From positions 1 to 58,387 of the IMG/VR virus record IMGVR_UViG_3300008122_000003: DNA of 58,387 nt. The stretch is one strand, 5' to 3'. Under the pieces are notes generated by a model. That model was not told where the DNA came from. It saw nothing but the letters and a program-made list of their open reading frames with translations, and did not search any database. The position numbers were made by a program, and so were the translations under genes. Below are positions 10,476 to 51,600 of this stretch, one piece after another (position 1 is the stretch's first letter; each line of letters starts with the position of its first letter). The DNA is from a virus.

Positions 10476-11046
10476 AGCGGCGACCGTCAAGGAGGGCTTA
10501 AACGCCCTCCGCAATAACCAGATTGACAAGAAATCGGAAGAGATGATCTTCCAAGGCTGCACCCAGTCGCAGCTGGTCAAGATCTTCCGAATGGACAGGC
10601 GGGACATCGCCGCCAAACTTGCAGAATCCCCCATTACCCCGTGCGGCGCCCGTGCGGGGTATCCGATTTACGCCATCCACGAGGTGGCGCCGTACCTCGT
10701 CAAGCCGCTCTATGACATCGAGACCTACCTCAAGCGGATGCACCACAACGACCTGCCGAAACACCTGTCCAAGGAGTTCTGGGCGGGCATGCGGGCAAAG
10801 CAGGAGTACCAGCTCAAAGAAGGCGAGCTGTGGCCCACGGAGAAGGTCATCGGGGTGATGGGCGACGTATTCAAGCGCCTGCGCATGTCGATGCTACTGG
10901 TACAGGACGCGGTTGAGCGCGAGCATATGCTGACGGCGCAGCAGCGCGACAAGATCAGCTCGCTCATCGACGGGGCCTTGAACGACATGGCGGATGATCT
11001 GGTCGAGCAGTTCAAAGAGCCGGAGGCGGAGGACGATGAGCTATAA
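10468..11046 (+). CDS. terminase small subunit, DUF1441-like
   Basis: A 192-residue protein placed directly before the large terminase. Residues about 22-60 look like a helix-turn-helix (QGCTQSQLVKIFRMDRRDI), the usual DNA-recognition part of small terminases, which bind the packaging site and load the large subunit. The remainder is helical, consistent with oligomerisation, and resembles the DUF1441 family. GGGAGCAG precedes the ATG at 10468. The acidic end EAEDDEL is encoded by bases that also supply the ribosome site (GGAGGACG) and start codon of the large terminase. Role mainly from position and the HTH. Confidence 0.8.
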   Translation: MAKAATVKEGLNALRNNQIDKKSEEMIFQGCTQSQLVKIFRMDRRDIAAKLAESPITPCGARAGYPIYAIHEVAPYLVKPLYDIETYLKRMHHNDLPKHLSKEFWAGMRAKQEYQLKEGELWPTEKVIGVMGDVFKRLRMSMLLVQDAVEREHMLTAQQRDKISSLIDGALNDMADDLVEQFKEPEAEDDEL

Positions 11047-13786
11047 GTCGCTTCGAGAGATAGTCCGCACCCTGGCCGAGAACTTGAGGCCGCCAGAGCG
11101 GATGACGGTGGCCAAGGCAGCCGAGAAGTACCGGTTCATCAACCAGCCAGGGGCCTACGTCGGTCAGTGGGACAACAGCACAGCCCCTTACATGGTCGAG
11201 CCGATGAACACCTTCGCGTCTCGCGACTATTCGAACATGGCATTCGCAGGTCCCGCACAAAGCGGCAAACCGATCTGGGTAGAAACACCAGTGGCCACGC
11301 CGTCAGGCTGGACGACCATGGGTGAAATCGAACCAGGGGATGTGATTTTCAGCGAGAAAGGCGTCCCGACAACGGTCACCTATGTAACCCCAGTTTTCCA
11401 AGATCGGGAGTGCTACCGCATTGAGTTCGATGATGGTTCGGAGATCATCGCGGATGGCGTCCACCGCTGGGAGGTCTACTACACCACGGAAGACGACTTG
11501 GCCCGTGCGGTAGTTACCACCGATGAAATATTCCAGTCGCAAAACCACAAAGACTATCTGATCCGGACAACCAAGCCATTGGCCCTCCCCCCATCACCCT
11601 TAGTGGCCACTGTGGTTGTCGCGCATGCAGTCAGTACCGGGGCACCCCTTCCGATGAGGCTCCTGAGAGGGTCTATCGAACAGCGCCGCGAGGCGTTCGA
11701 AGCATTGGCGGAAGGACGCGATGGGGTCATCGAGGTCAAAGCATCCACGCGAGCGCAGGCCCTATCCTTCCAAGAACTGGCCGTGTCGCTAGGGTATCGC
11801 GCAAAAATGAAAGGGACGATGGTTGAGGTGGACACGAGCCCGTGGCATTGGCGGACCATAGCCCGAGTAGTCCAGGTTCAATCCGTGCCTGTCCGGTGCA
11901 TATCGGTCAGCAACGAGAGTCACCTGTTCCTGGTCGGCGAGCAGATGGTGCCTACCCATAACACCGACGCCATCGTAATCAACGGCCTCGCTTACTCGGT
12001 GAAGGTCGACCCGATGGACACCATGCTGTTCTGTCCGACCAACTCGGCCGCCCGCGACTTCTCGATCCGACGGGTTGACCGTCTGCACCGGCACTCGCCT
12101 GAGATCGGCGCCATGCTGCTGAAGGGGCGAGACGCGGACAACGTGATGGACAAGCACTACGTGACCGGCATGATCTTCACGATCAGCTGGCCGTCCGTCA
12201 CCGAGCTGGCAGGTAGACCGGTCGGCCGCATCATCATGACCGACTTCGACAGGATGCCGATCGACGTGGGCGGCGACGGTAACGCCTTCGACTTGGCGAC
12301 CAAGCGGACAACTACGTTCGGCACCTTCGCCATGTGTGCGGCTGAGAGCTCGCCGTCTCACCCAATCCTTGACTCGAAGTGGATCCCGCGCAGCCCGCAT
12401 GAGGCGCCACCCTGCACCGGGATCATGGCGCTCTACAACCGGGGCGACCGCCGCCGCTGGCAGTGGCCATGCCTGCACTGCTGGACGTGGTTCGAAGGTA
12501 AGTTCGACCTGCTCGTCTGGGAAGACAAGCACGACTCCAACCTGGAGAAGGCATCGACGGCCCACATGGCCTGCCCGCACTGCGGAACGATGATCCATCC
12601 GGACGAGCGCCACGAGATGCAACAGTGGGGCATGTGGGTACCGGAAGGCATGCACGTCAACAACAAGGGGCAGCTCGCAGGCAAGCGACCCCGCACCACC
12701 TTCGCCAGCTACTGGCTGCGCGGCACAGCGGCGGCGTTTGTGACGTGGCCGAAGCTGGTCCTGACCTACCTCGATGCACACGACGAGCACGAGCGCACCG
12801 GATCTGAGGAATCGCTCAAGAAATTCTGGAACAACGACATGGGGGAGCCCTATGTCCCCAAGATGACCGACAGCATCCGTCTGCCAGAGGCGATGAAGTC
12901 AAAGGCGGTCGAGCTACCAGAGCAGATGGTGCCGGAGGGTGTCAGGTTCATTGTGGGCAACGTGGACGTGCAGAAAAACGCATTCGTGGTGCAGGTGCAC
13001 GGCATCATGCCCGGGCGCCCGCACGACCTTGTGCTGATCGACCGGTTCAACATCACTAAGTCAAAGCGCGTGGATGAGGACGGGGATCCGGAACTGGTCA
13101 AACCCAACGCCTACCTGGACGACTGGCAGCTCATCAAAGAGCAGGTCATGGACAAGGAGTATGAGCTGGGCGACGGGTCAGGCCGGATGATGAAGGTGAA
13201 ATTCACGACCTGTGACTCGGGCGGTCAGGTCGGTGTTACCGATCGAGCATATGACTTCTACCGCTGGCTGCGAGAGCGCGGTGAGAACGGCCGATTCATT
13301 CTGGTGAAGGGCGACCGCAACCCGTCCGCCCCCCGGACACGGATCTCCTACCCAGACAGTCAGAAGAAAGACAACAAGTCGGCGGCCCGTGGCGACATTC
13401 CGCTGCTCATGTTCAACCCGAACATGTTGAAGGACGCCCTAAACGGCAGACTGGATGTCATCGAGCCAGGGCGCGGCATGTTCCACTATCCGAAGTGGTT
13501 GCCGGACTCATGGTATGCAGAGATGTGTGCCGAGATCCGAACAGACAAGGGCTGGGAGAACCCCCAGAAACTGCGAAACGAGGCGTGGGACTTGAGTTAC
13601 TATTGCCTTGGGGTATGCATATCCCCGAAACTACTCAACGTTGAGATGATAGATTGGGAAAATCCGCCAGCGTGGGCGGATGTTTGGGACAAGAACGCCC
13701 TGGTGCGCAGTCGAGAAGATCCGACCCGTTTCATGGCGCAGCCCAAGACCATTGATTTCGGTAAATTTGCGGAGGCGCTAGCATAA
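11036..13786 (+). CDS. terminase large subunit (GpA type) interrupted by an intein
   Basis: A 916-residue precursor: a GpA-family packaging ATPase and nuclease of 685 residues plus a 231-residue intein. The intein splits Walker A: SGK ends at residue 78 and the lysine is followed after splicing by T310 (restoring AQSGKT). The host protein continues with ATPase segments (IIMTDFDRM as Walker B candidate) and a Cys-rich insert (CLHCW, CPHC), then a C-terminal nuclease region with NVDVQKN. It would cut concatemers and pump DNA into proheads. The start overlaps the small subunit; the stop overlaps gpW (TAATG). Unspliced protein should be inactive because the P-loop is broken. Confidence 0.93.
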   Translation: MSYKSLREIVRTLAENLRPPERMTVAKAAEKYRFINQPGAYVGQWDNSTAPYMVEPMNTFASRDYSNMAFAGPAQSGKPIWVETPVATPSGWTTMGEIEPGDVIFSEKGVPTTVTYVTPVFQDRECYRIEFDDGSEIIADGVHRWEVYYTTEDDLARAVVTTDEIFQSQNHKDYLIRTTKPLALPPSPLVATVVVAHAVSTGAPLPMRLLRGSIEQRREAFEALAEGRDGVIEVKASTRAQALSFQELAVSLGYRAKMKGTMVEVDTSPWHWRTIARVVQVQSVPVRCISVSNESHLFLVGEQMVPTHNTDAIVINGLAYSVKVDPMDTMLFCPTNSAARDFSIRRVDRLHRHSPEIGAMLLKGRDADNVMDKHYVTGMIFTISWPSVTELAGRPVGRIIMTDFDRMPIDVGGDGNAFDLATKRTTTFGTFAMCAAESSPSHPILDSKWIPRSPHEAPPCTGIMALYNRGDRRRWQWPCLHCWTWFEGKFDLLVWEDKHDSNLEKASTAHMACPHCGTMIHPDERHEMQQWGMWVPEGMHVNNKGQLAGKRPRTTFASYWLRGTAAAFVTWPKLVLTYLDAHDEHERTGSEESLKKFWNNDMGEPYVPKMTDSIRLPEAMKSKAVELPEQMVPEGVRFIVGNVDVQKNAFVVQVHGIMPGRPHDLVLIDRFNITKSKRVDEDGDPELVKPNAYLDDWQLIKEQVMDKEYELGDGSGRMMKVKFTTCDSGGQVGVTDRAYDFYRWLRERGENGRFILVKGDRNPSAPRTRISYPDSQKKDNKSAARGDIPLLMFNPNMLKDALNGRLDVIEPGRGMFHYPKWLPDSWYAEMCAEIRTDKGWENPQKLRNEAWDLSYYCLGVCISPKLLNVEMIDWENPPAWADVWDKNALVRSREDPTRFMAQPKTIDFGKFAEALA
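11270..11962 (+). other. class 3 intein in the terminase Walker A motif
   Basis: Residues 79-309 of the terminase precursor. It starts with Pro rather than Cys/Ser (PIWVETPVATPSGWTTMGEI) and ends VPTHN before a +1 Thr. The class 3 WCT triad is present: Trp two after the block B His (GVHRWEV), Cys in block F (VRCISVSNESHLFLVG), and Thr before the terminal His-Asn. Class 3 inteins use this internal Cys as first nucleophile, which explains the non-nucleophilic first residue. The middle part has one degenerate LAGLIDADG-like helix (EALAEGRDG, with RGSIEQRR before it), so a homing endonuclease was probably present and has decayed. Confidence 0.9.
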
Positions 13787-48875: not shown

Positions 48876-49109
48876 TTATATTTTCTTGGCTTTGAAAATG
48901 CAGCACTTTTTGAACTTCTTGCCTGAACCGCAAGGGCACGGGGTGTTGCGGCCGACCCTGACGCGGCGGCAAACCACTTCAGCGCCTTCCGGGACATCTT
49001 CGTCCATCGCGGCGATCATCTTGCCGATATCCGTCTTGTCGCCGCGGTAAAACAGCTGAAGAAACTCGTCGCTCATCCCTTCTCTGTCTGGGAATCTTAA
49101 CTCTTGCAT
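48876..49109 (-). CDS. SEC-C zinc motif protein
   Basis: A 77-residue protein ending in a SEC-C metal-binding motif (CPCGSGKKFKKCC), as at the C-terminus of SecA, where it binds zinc and SecB or ribosomes. The remainder (SDEFLQLFYRGDKTDIGKMI) is helical. Small SEC-C proteins are common in phages and mobile elements but of unknown function. AAGGAC precedes ATG 49109. Confidence 0.85.
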   Translation of the reverse strand: MQELRFPDREGMSDEFLQLFYRGDKTDIGKMIAAMDEDVPEGAEVVCRRVRVGRNTPCPCGSGKKFKKCCIFKAKKI

Positions 49110-50053: not shown

Positions 50054-50424
50054 TTTTCGAACCTCATTATTGCGTGGCCCACCAGTTGGCTGTCGGGCAT
50101 GACAGATACCAAGCGGCCTGATATTTTACGCTGGCCGTTTTTACGGCGATGGTTATCTAGCACTTCGTTTTTCAAGCGGAGTCTCATGTCCAGGTCTGTT
50201 CGGTATTGATATTCTGGGATGCCGCGTTCGCATCGCAAAACATAACACTCTCGGTTAAAGGCCTTGAACTCATCCGGGCTTAGTTTTAGCTCTGGGATGA
50301 AAAACGGCTTGTGGGTATCCTCCAGGGTAGCCAGCTCTTCCTTGAGACCGTCCAGCTCGCCTTGGGTCTTGCGGATGGCGTCGCGCAGCATGTCACGGCG
50401 CATGGTGTACTCTTGATCAGTCAT
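50050..50424 (-). CDS. coiled-coil protein, unknown
   Basis: A 124-residue protein with coiled coil (RDAIRKTQGELDGLKEELAT) and a basic second half (RLKNEVLDNHRRKNGQRKIS). ATG 50424 overlaps the end of the first gene of the operon; the longer open frame upstream is a shadow of that gene. Unknown function. Confidence 0.72.
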   Translation of the reverse strand: MTDQEYTMRRDMLRDAIRKTQGELDGLKEELATLEDTHKPFFIPELKLSPDEFKAFNRECYVLRCERGIPEYQYRTDLDMRLRLKNEVLDNHRRKNGQRKISGRLVSVMPDSQLVGHAIMRFEK

Positions 50425-50768
50425 TGCTCGCTCCGGTTGCAGGTGATCAGGGAGTAGACCACCACGCGGCCGTCGCCGGTGATCATCTCGCCTGTGGATT
50501 GGTTGTAGCGCAGGCCTGTCTTCTCGGCCGCACGCTTGATGGCGCCGCCCGCTGTGCATTTGAGGTTGTAGCGCACTTTGGACAGCTCGTCCTTCAGGTC
50601 GCACAGGCGGACGGTGCCTTCCAGTTGGCGGGTAATGTAGTGCAGCTCGCCGGGGCTAAGGCCCAGGATGGCCGTCATGTGCTTGCCCGGGCGTCCGCCC
50701 ATCGACGGGGTGACATCCACGTCACTCTCGATGGGGGCCGTCAGGTCATGCAGGTCTTGGTTGGGCAT
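50421..50768 (-). CDS. first gene of the 50824 operon, unknown
   Basis: A 115-residue protein. It has a helical segment (SPGELHYITRQLEGTVRLCD) and an end like a small beta domain (YNQSTGEMITGDGRVVVYSL). AGGAGAACGAAT before the ATG is a good ribosome site. Promoter-proximal, hence early. No named domain. Confidence 0.75.
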   Translation of the reverse strand: MPNQDLHDLTAPIESDVDVTPSMGGRPGKHMTAILGLSPGELHYITRQLEGTVRLCDLKDELSKVRYNLKCTAGGAIKRAAEKTGLRYNQSTGEMITGDGRVVVYSLITCNRSEQ

Positions 50769-50850: not shown

Positions 50851-50880
50851 TTGACACGACGGCGGCATGGCGGCAATACT
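50851..50880 (+). promoter_or_regulatory. promoter of the structured RNA
   Basis: TTGACA at 50851-50856 and AATACT at 50875-50880 with an 18-bp spacer (CAATAC at 17 bp is the alternative). It faces right, back-to-back with the leftward early promoter at 50824. The early palindrome is not part of it. Confidence 0.65.
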
Positions 50881-50885
50881 TGCCT

Positions 50886-51282
50886 CATCCAAACAGGATA
50901 TCCCCGACAAGGATAGAAAGGAGAGTGATCCTATCTCAAGCTGGTGGCATTCCAGTAAGCTCGAAGCCATGTCGAACGACAGCGCGACGAGCACACAACT
51001 GAGGTTGCATTGGGCGTGGTGGCGTTACCACTCTAAACAACGCGGCTTTCAAGGCTTCCATGAAGTTGGAGTCCTCGGGCCACTCCGGTGCAACCTCAGT
51101 TGTGGTGAAAGAGCTTTACCGACAGACCCTGTCAGCGGGATGACACAGGGCGCTTGCATCAAGGTGAAAAGGGTAGACGTGGACGTGCCGTGATCCGCAA
51201 CGGTTGGAAACCACGCACAAGGGCCGCCAAACGGCAGAAGATGCCATCGCAACAAGAAAGCCCTCTTACGAGGGCTTTTTCC
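50886..51282 (+). ncRNA. large structured RNA, unknown class
   Basis: About 400 bases with no believable protein, bounded by a promoter and a terminator on the plus strand while flanking genes run leftward. The main element is a 16-bp perfect inverted repeat, CACAACTGAGGTTGCA (50994-51009) with TGCAACCTCAGTTGTG (51089-51104). Inside it are three hairpins: GTGGT/ACCAC (51016-51031), CTTC/GAAG (51055-51065), GGAGT/ACTCC (51068-51086). Outside are TGTC/GACA near 50970, CTGG/CCAG near 50941, GACAG/CTGTC near 51121, GGTT/AACC near 51203 and GCCG/CGGC near 51223. No reverse transcriptase, tRNA-like end, RNase P or self-splicing core was recognised. A regulatory or structural RNA is inferred. Confidence 0.65.
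51257..51280. terminator. terminator of the structured RNA
   Basis: AAAGCCCTC-TTACG-AGGGCTTTTT. The T run favours the plus strand; the A run on the other side gives weaker termination of the leftward gene ending at 51295. Confidence 0.88.
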
Positions 51283-51294
51283 TATCCGCAGTTC

Positions 51295-51600
51295 TCACTT
51301 CTTACTCAACGCGCAGTAGGCGATGATCTTCACCGCCAGGCGCTCGGCCAATACCATCTGCTGGGGGTTGAACTGCCCCGACTGCATGATCCCGACCAGG
51401 CCCATCAAGTTGCCCATGGCCTTCAGGTCGGCCATGGCGGACTGCATGATCTGCTGGGGGTTATGCCCTTCCTTGATGATGGACACCGCCCTGTCTCGCA
51501 AACCATCCGCCACGTCGATCGCCGGTCCGTACTGGGTATCAGTCGGCAGGGCTTGCGGCGGCTGCAGGTCGCTTGCTTGCAACTGCATGCTCTGCTCCAT
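51295..51600 (-). CDS. small helical protein, unknown
   Basis: A 101-residue protein, Gln/Met/Ala-rich and mostly helical (SIIKEGHNPQQIMQSAMADL, QQMVLAERLAVKIIAYCAL). It overlaps the upstream gene by 62 bases in another frame; a later start (MQLQAS, residue 5) changes this little. Last gene of its group. Unknown. Confidence 0.65.
   Translation of the reverse strand: MEQSMQLQASDLQPPQALPTDTQYGPAIDVADGLRDRAVSIIKEGHNPQQIMQSAMADLKAMGNLMGLVGIMQSGQFNPQQMVLAERLAVKIIAYCALSKK

Follow-up and report, generated by a model that had tools for sequence, protein, structure and literature searches.

A region between two leftward operons of an Aeromonas phage very probably encodes a structured, modular non-coding RNA of about 395 nt (50887-51282, plus strand), predicted from its fold z-score, the lack of a conserved reading frame and the lack of an Rfam match. 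The window, that is, the whole stretch of DNA analysed, corresponds to a 58,387-base phage record whose nearest relative in the phage collection over 30000-54900 is Aeromonas phage phiWae15 (72% covered, 87% identity). The genes flanking the element (50421-50768 and 51295-51600) both run leftward, as an earlier sequence-only reading of the window had described. That reading took the element for a good candidate for an undescribed phage RNA; the structured non-coding RNA stands, and instead of standing alone it belongs to a widespread modular class, related domains of which occur in hundreds of phage and prophage sequences, almost entirely unannotated.

Transcription signals, folding and coding potential

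The RNA would be transcribed from a sigma70-type promoter on the plus strand (50851-50880: TTGACA at 50851-50856, an 18-nt spacer, AATACT at 50875-50880), which matches the consensus at 10 of 12 positions and is near base-for-base the same in phiWae15. It is one of 2 promoter-like sites in the region, against 0.3 in shuffles. The start of the RNA was placed from this promoter and its end from a plus-strand terminator, the hairpin AAAGCCCTC-TTAC-GAGGGCTTT with a T-rich tail (about 51255-51281), which is present in the predicted fold of the RNA and conserved in phiWae15. Both signals had been called from the sequence alone, and both hold up. An automatic terminator scan did not list the hairpin, presumably because A/T flanks lengthen its stem; it probably also ends the leftward operon on the right side.

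The segment 50890-51282 is strongly folded, with a predicted energy of -158.6 kcal/mol compared with -127.1 +/- 6.4 kcal/mol for dinucleotide shuffles (z = -4.94), a value that 0 of 100 shuffles reached. A 108-aa open reading frame (50867-51193) spans part of the RNA, and a protein-coding reading was rejected because this frame is not preserved in phiWae15, where it shifts and stops after 23 codons. The earlier statement that there is no credible gene here was thus correct, and a search for the opposite case, in which a protein frame is conserved and the stems are not, did not find one.

No Rfam family matched the window at its gathering score, and the weaker matches by E-value all fell below theirs; those to STnc350, SpF51, isrB, asX2 and STnc320 were to the terminator part, far below gathering, and were set aside. 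Neither ARAGORN nor Rfam (RF00005, tmRNA) found a tRNA or tmRNA in the window, STnc100 (RF02076; gathering score 47 bits) gave no window match even at E = 10, and GOLLD and ROOL had no Rfam or sequence match there. The earlier reading is refined in that one domain type of the wider class overlaps Rfam STnc100. As to a retron RNA, which would have a reverse transcriptase gene beside it, Pfam searches of ten flanking proteins found none; an "RNA-directed DNA polymerase" is annotated in phiWae15 somewhere within the aligned 25 kb. An integron attC-like site is probably a poor description, as CACAAC/GTTGTGG does not seem to fit the core-site consensus. A ribosome sponge acting through the Shine-Dalgarno-like AGGAGGUGAUC was also set aside, since this segment is a self-complementary hairpin in the consensus fold, with an extra A in the window version.

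A covarying leader domain

The 5' part of the RNA is a leader domain (50913-50999, plus strand) that ends in ACACAAC. A blastn search with the region returned seven Aeromonas phage records, six of which match only 50902-51012; these matches are intergenic, and the phages do not otherwise resemble the window. With the 25-kb stretch 30000-54900 as query, phiWae15 is the only one whose alignment exceeds about 0.1 kb. RNAalifold on 14 aligned leader sequences gave a consensus of 20 pairs, 8 of them with compensatory changes on both sides, made up of a GGAG-GUGAUCC hairpin, a CUGG/CCAG hairpin and a GCUC/GAGC helix with an inner UGUC-GAAC-GACA hairpin. The innermost hairpin reads UGUC-GAAC-GACA in the window, UGUC-GAAC-GAUA in ST4 and CACC-GAGA-GGUG in L144.

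Across the 14 sequences 95.7% of the cells are paired, and pairing falls to 36-53% when the partner is slid by one to three columns, a lenient control because the structure itself comes from this alignment. In none of 500 shuffles were there as many pairs changed on both sides, or as high a covariation score; these counts are not probabilities because the sequences are related. The covariance model R1 scores the window leader, which was in its training set, at 94.4 bits. It also picks up phages that were not used to build it, scoring Avpx2 at 44.5 bits and P400, a Yersinia phage, at 30.9 bits. In P400 the first two hairpins alone are kept, directly before a terminator.

A hairpin read by eye, TATCC-CCCGACAA-GGATA (50899-50915, plus strand), lies 5' of the leader domain; its counterpart in ST4, L141 and L143-L146 is (G)TTTCC/GGAAA(C), with the CCGACAA loop shared. 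A 19-base leader pattern matched genome contigs only of unrelated bacteria, which we take as chance, a spaced leader pattern had no matches, the three IMG/VR matches to AACGACAGCGCGACGAGC look like chance in coding DNA, and the plasmid collection gave no match to the window RNA.

Domain I, a conserved arm around a hypervariable insert

The perfect 16-bp inverted repeat noted in the sequence-only reading is exact (CACAACTGAGGTTGCA at 50994-51009, TGCAACCTCAGTTGTG at 51089-51104), and it proves to be the standard arm of the modular class. The 5' strand, CACAAC-TG-A-GGTTG-CATT (50994-51011), and the 3' strand, GGTG-CAACC-TCA-GTTGTG (51087-51104), both on the plus strand, enclose a hypervariable insert (51012-51086, plus strand), so that the window (50994-51104) fits the general form CACAAC-arm-CATT ... 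RGTG-arm-GTTGTGG. Among 42 distinct arm variants, positions 7-16 show G-C, T-A and A-T exchanges with pairing retained; the paired fraction itself is inflated because modules were picked by requiring most pairs, whereas the exchange of pair types is not made by that selection. For the E. coli modules the search pattern itself dictated the 5' arm, and the 3' arm and insert were free. The arm search gave 127 matches in the loci compared with 4 to 8 for a similar search of shuffled loci. Covariation in homologous loci, proposed earlier as a check on the stems, was thus found for both the leader stems and the Domain I arm.

The 67 distinct Domain I inserts that we collected come from phages and prophages of Aeromonas and enterobacteria, P7 among them. 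A T-arm-like hairpin occurs on the sense strand in 15 of the 67 and on the antisense strand in 1, with 0.56 expected. Some inserts also carry a D-arm-like hairpin, and in L062 and L162 the insert looks like an almost complete tRNA body set on the arm. The likeness to tRNA (RF00005) and tRNA-like elements extends to location: modules occur between true tRNA genes of phage tRNA islands, and ARAGORN places tRNA genes within 1 kb of 18 of the 67 modules, on the same strand in all 18. Unlike in a tRNA, the acceptor stem is replaced by the 18-bp arm, without CCA, and the anticodon arms are, in our own reading, mostly missing or degenerate.

Two narrower readings of the inserts were dropped. An antisense guide does not fit, as the T-arm pieces are sense rather than antisense, and a decoy for anticodon nucleases in particular is not favoured given the state of the anticodon arms. 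The window insert is not recognisably tRNA-like: a search at E = 10 gave no tRNA match for it or for Domain II, so the argument from tRNA likeness draws on the other members of the class. The window also lacks a nearby tRNA gene, a frequent but not universal feature of the class.

Domain II and the shared strand

The end of Domain I, GUUGUGGUG, can pair alternatively with a strand 40-190 nt downstream, enclosing a second domain. In the window this is Domain II (51099-51253, plus strand), closed by GUUGUGGUG (51099-51107) with CAUCGCAAC (51245-51253) in 9 of 9 pairs, 7 Watson-Crick and two wobbles, a helix that 3% of shuffles reach; the downstream partner fits the CRYCRCAAY-type strand of the class. 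A counterpart helix of 9 pairs with at least 8 Watson-Crick occurs in 31 of the 67 modules, against 1.6% with shuffled downstream sequence. In a second copy in P7, CACAAC, GUUGUGG and CCACAAC are jointly changed to CGCAAC, AUUGCGG and CCGCAAU.

The Domain II closing helix competes with CACAAC/GUUGUG, the outer part of Domain I, for one strand. A fold containing it has a predicted energy of -148.0 kcal/mol compared with -160.4 kcal/mol for the predicted optimum, a cost of about 12 kcal/mol, so that the two folds compete and the choice between them would have to be left to tertiary contacts or co-transcriptional folding. Window Domain II itself has no blastn match in phages. One Domain II type, seen in P7, ST4 and L143, overlaps Rfam STnc100, with scores of 43, 39.1 and 28.5 bits among these relatives, all below the threshold of 47.

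Two further loci are worth recording here. In phage P400 (L014, 2390-2500) the closing helix of Domain II is GUUGUGAUG/CAUCACAAC, which differs from the usual one by compensatory changes and has a T-arm immediately within it; next come half of a leader domain and then a terminator, where a thymidylate synthase gene is annotated to start. In phage LAh_6 (L015, 1224-1520 and 2263-2870) a Domain II type-B module and a gene with a ProQ-like RNA chaperone annotation are close neighbours, and the gene may encode a partner protein.

Exchange of domains and distribution of the class

PhiWae15 has the promoter, leader, terminator and neighbours of the window and lacks exactly Domains I and II. Its junction runs from GAGCACACAAC directly onto AAGAAAGCCCTC, and the second boundary in the window is CATCGCAAC|AAGAAAGCCCTC; judged from these sequences, Domains I and II are present or absent as one unit between CAAC boundaries. 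As phiWae15 keeps the leader only, the two domains are dispensable there. IMG/VR contig L164 is a metagenome phage in which a nearly identical copy of the window insert is followed by a different Domain II (with an apparent terminase small-subunit gene a little beyond it), indicating that domains have been swapped. Across the class, each of 11 insert types is combined with two or more Domain II types, and each of seven Domain II types with two or more inserts; the domains appear to be exchanged at CACAAC/GUUGUG boundaries.

Iterated searches from the leader loci revealed conserved non-coding modules that form a network across phages of Aeromonas, Klebsiella, Cronobacter, Yersinia and E. coli. 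Taken by itself, the E. coli-type arm pattern CACAACAGRTAAGRGCATT occurs in at least 120 IMG/VR stretches, and a related Cronobacter module matches 572 records among complete E. coli genomes, mostly plasmids, with no annotated feature under the match among the 30 matches listed. The hosts of the class include P1-like plasmid prophages, lambdoid prophages and phages of Klebsiella, Cronobacter, Yersinia and Aeromonas, and nearly all of these loci are annotated as empty intergenic DNA; non-coding RNA is ignored in most phage annotation. Apart from the Domain II type that overlaps STnc100, the class is unannotated. Islands of tRNA genes are a frequent location of its modules, as are regions upstream of terminase or lysis genes. 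In P7 the location is between tRNA-Thr and terB, and P7 also has an unannotated serine/selenocysteine-type tRNA-like gene between two RNA modules (L016, 2536-2620; tRNA-Sec 46.6 bits, gathering 47).

Large phage RNAs near tRNA islands are already known, as is STnc100; the modular class itself seems to be undescribed. Searches of open-licence papers for non-coding RNAs of phages, for tRNA-like elements and for tRNA arrays found no account of it, which is not proof of novelty. Another conserved non-coding module, GACACTTGCGAAAGCATGGG..CTCACCAG..AATGGCT..TAAGAGTTAACGTCACTA (L003 2750-2990; also L004, L005, L011 and L012), is present in several Aeromonas phages, either ahead of the leader domain or by itself.

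Possible functions of the RNA

The sequence evidence speaks for a non-coding, modular RNA that is under selection for its structure and passed between phages. With a conserved frame and a variable insert that moves between phages, the class looks like an element of host-phage conflict. We tentatively favour a trans-acting decoy or scaffold RNA that resembles the tRNA elbow. The folded RNA would, we infer, act in trans, its conserved frame presenting a swappable insert, tRNA-elbow-like in many members, which would bind and then titrate or organise an RNA-binding host or phage factor, such as a tRNA-processing or tRNA-cleaving enzyme, with specificity set by the insert. The shared GUUGUG strand might serve as a switch between two folds or in pairing between molecules. 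That leader, Domain I, Domain II and terminator make up a free-standing phage non-coding RNA gene, presumed to be transcribed, and that the trans-acting decoy or scaffold explains it, is taken jointly about an even bet. The broader proposal goes further and is held with less than even confidence: an undescribed, widespread class with a two-helix frame, a shared strand and hypervariable, exchanged, often tRNA-elbow-like inserts could form a modular RNA weapon or decoy that changes specificity by domain swap. A wider frame would then be available for Rfam STnc100 and for the large RNAs that phages carry next to tRNA islands.

A more doubtful alternative is an ornate scaffold RNA like GOLLD or ROOL, which would build an RNA-only oligomer or compartment during infection with the CACAAC/GUUGUG strands as domain-swapped contacts. 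One strand common to two helices would fit this, and the class shares with those large, ornate RNAs a phage or prophage origin, an elaborate fold and frequent placement near tRNA islands. GOLLD and ROOL, which occur in similar genomic settings, form RNA-only multimers, and one part of GOLLD is conserved and another less so (PMC12286853). Their domains and sizes differ from those of the class, however; besides the missing sequence and Rfam matches, the window RNA is smaller at about 395 nt and the phiWae15 version is about 130 nt.

A role as a base-pairing sRNA that regulates mRNAs of the host or the phage by way of Hfq or ProQ, the kind proposed for relatives of STnc100/PasD, is unlikely. These enterobacterial prophage sRNAs share the phage or prophage origin, and the STnc100 domain 'GGUGAAU...CACCGGGAGGCACYCGGCACC' corresponds to one Domain II type of the class (28-43 bits). 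RIL-seq has given targets for PasD, which is proposed to be related to STnc100 (PMC13192938), and the terminator tail of the window RNA is compatible with a chaperone site. The overlap covers model positions 31-147 of 206, with the leader and the hypervariable Domain I outside it as far as the matches show. Against such a role, the window itself has no STnc100 match, the inserts resemble sense tRNA pieces (15) over antisense ones (1), and stable helices take up most of the RNA. STnc100 RNA has been detected by RT-PCR in E. coli outer-membrane vesicles (PMC12370729), so at least one relative is transcribed.

Still less probable is that the modules are processing spacers, linkers between tRNAs in polycistronic transcripts, with the window copy as the leftover of a decayed tRNA island. 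The P7 and ST4 modules do adjoin or separate tRNA genes, and modules lie on the strand of nearby tRNAs and contain tRNA pieces, but the window is free of tRNAs and has nevertheless kept a promoter, terminator and covarying stems, and 49 of the 67 modules have no ARAGORN tRNA within 1 kb, some of these loci being short. Least probable is a cis-acting insulator, in which transcription here would mainly block or interfere with the two leftward operons and the RNA itself would be irrelevant: the intervening site, the rightward promoter and a terminator hairpin able to act both ways suit it, but compensatory changes in leader and arm, and the same domains in unrelated gene settings, are left unexplained.

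Other features of the window

A few genes to the left of the RNA, the minus strand (48876-49109) encodes a small protein in which Pfam identifies a SEC-C zinc motif (PF02810). The 930-aa terminase large subunit (10994-13786, plus strand) contains an apparent in-frame intein of ~230 aa, with apparent junctions SGK|PIWVETPVATPSGWTTMGEIEPGDVIF...VGEQMVPTHN|TDAIVING and a proline at the apparent first intein position.
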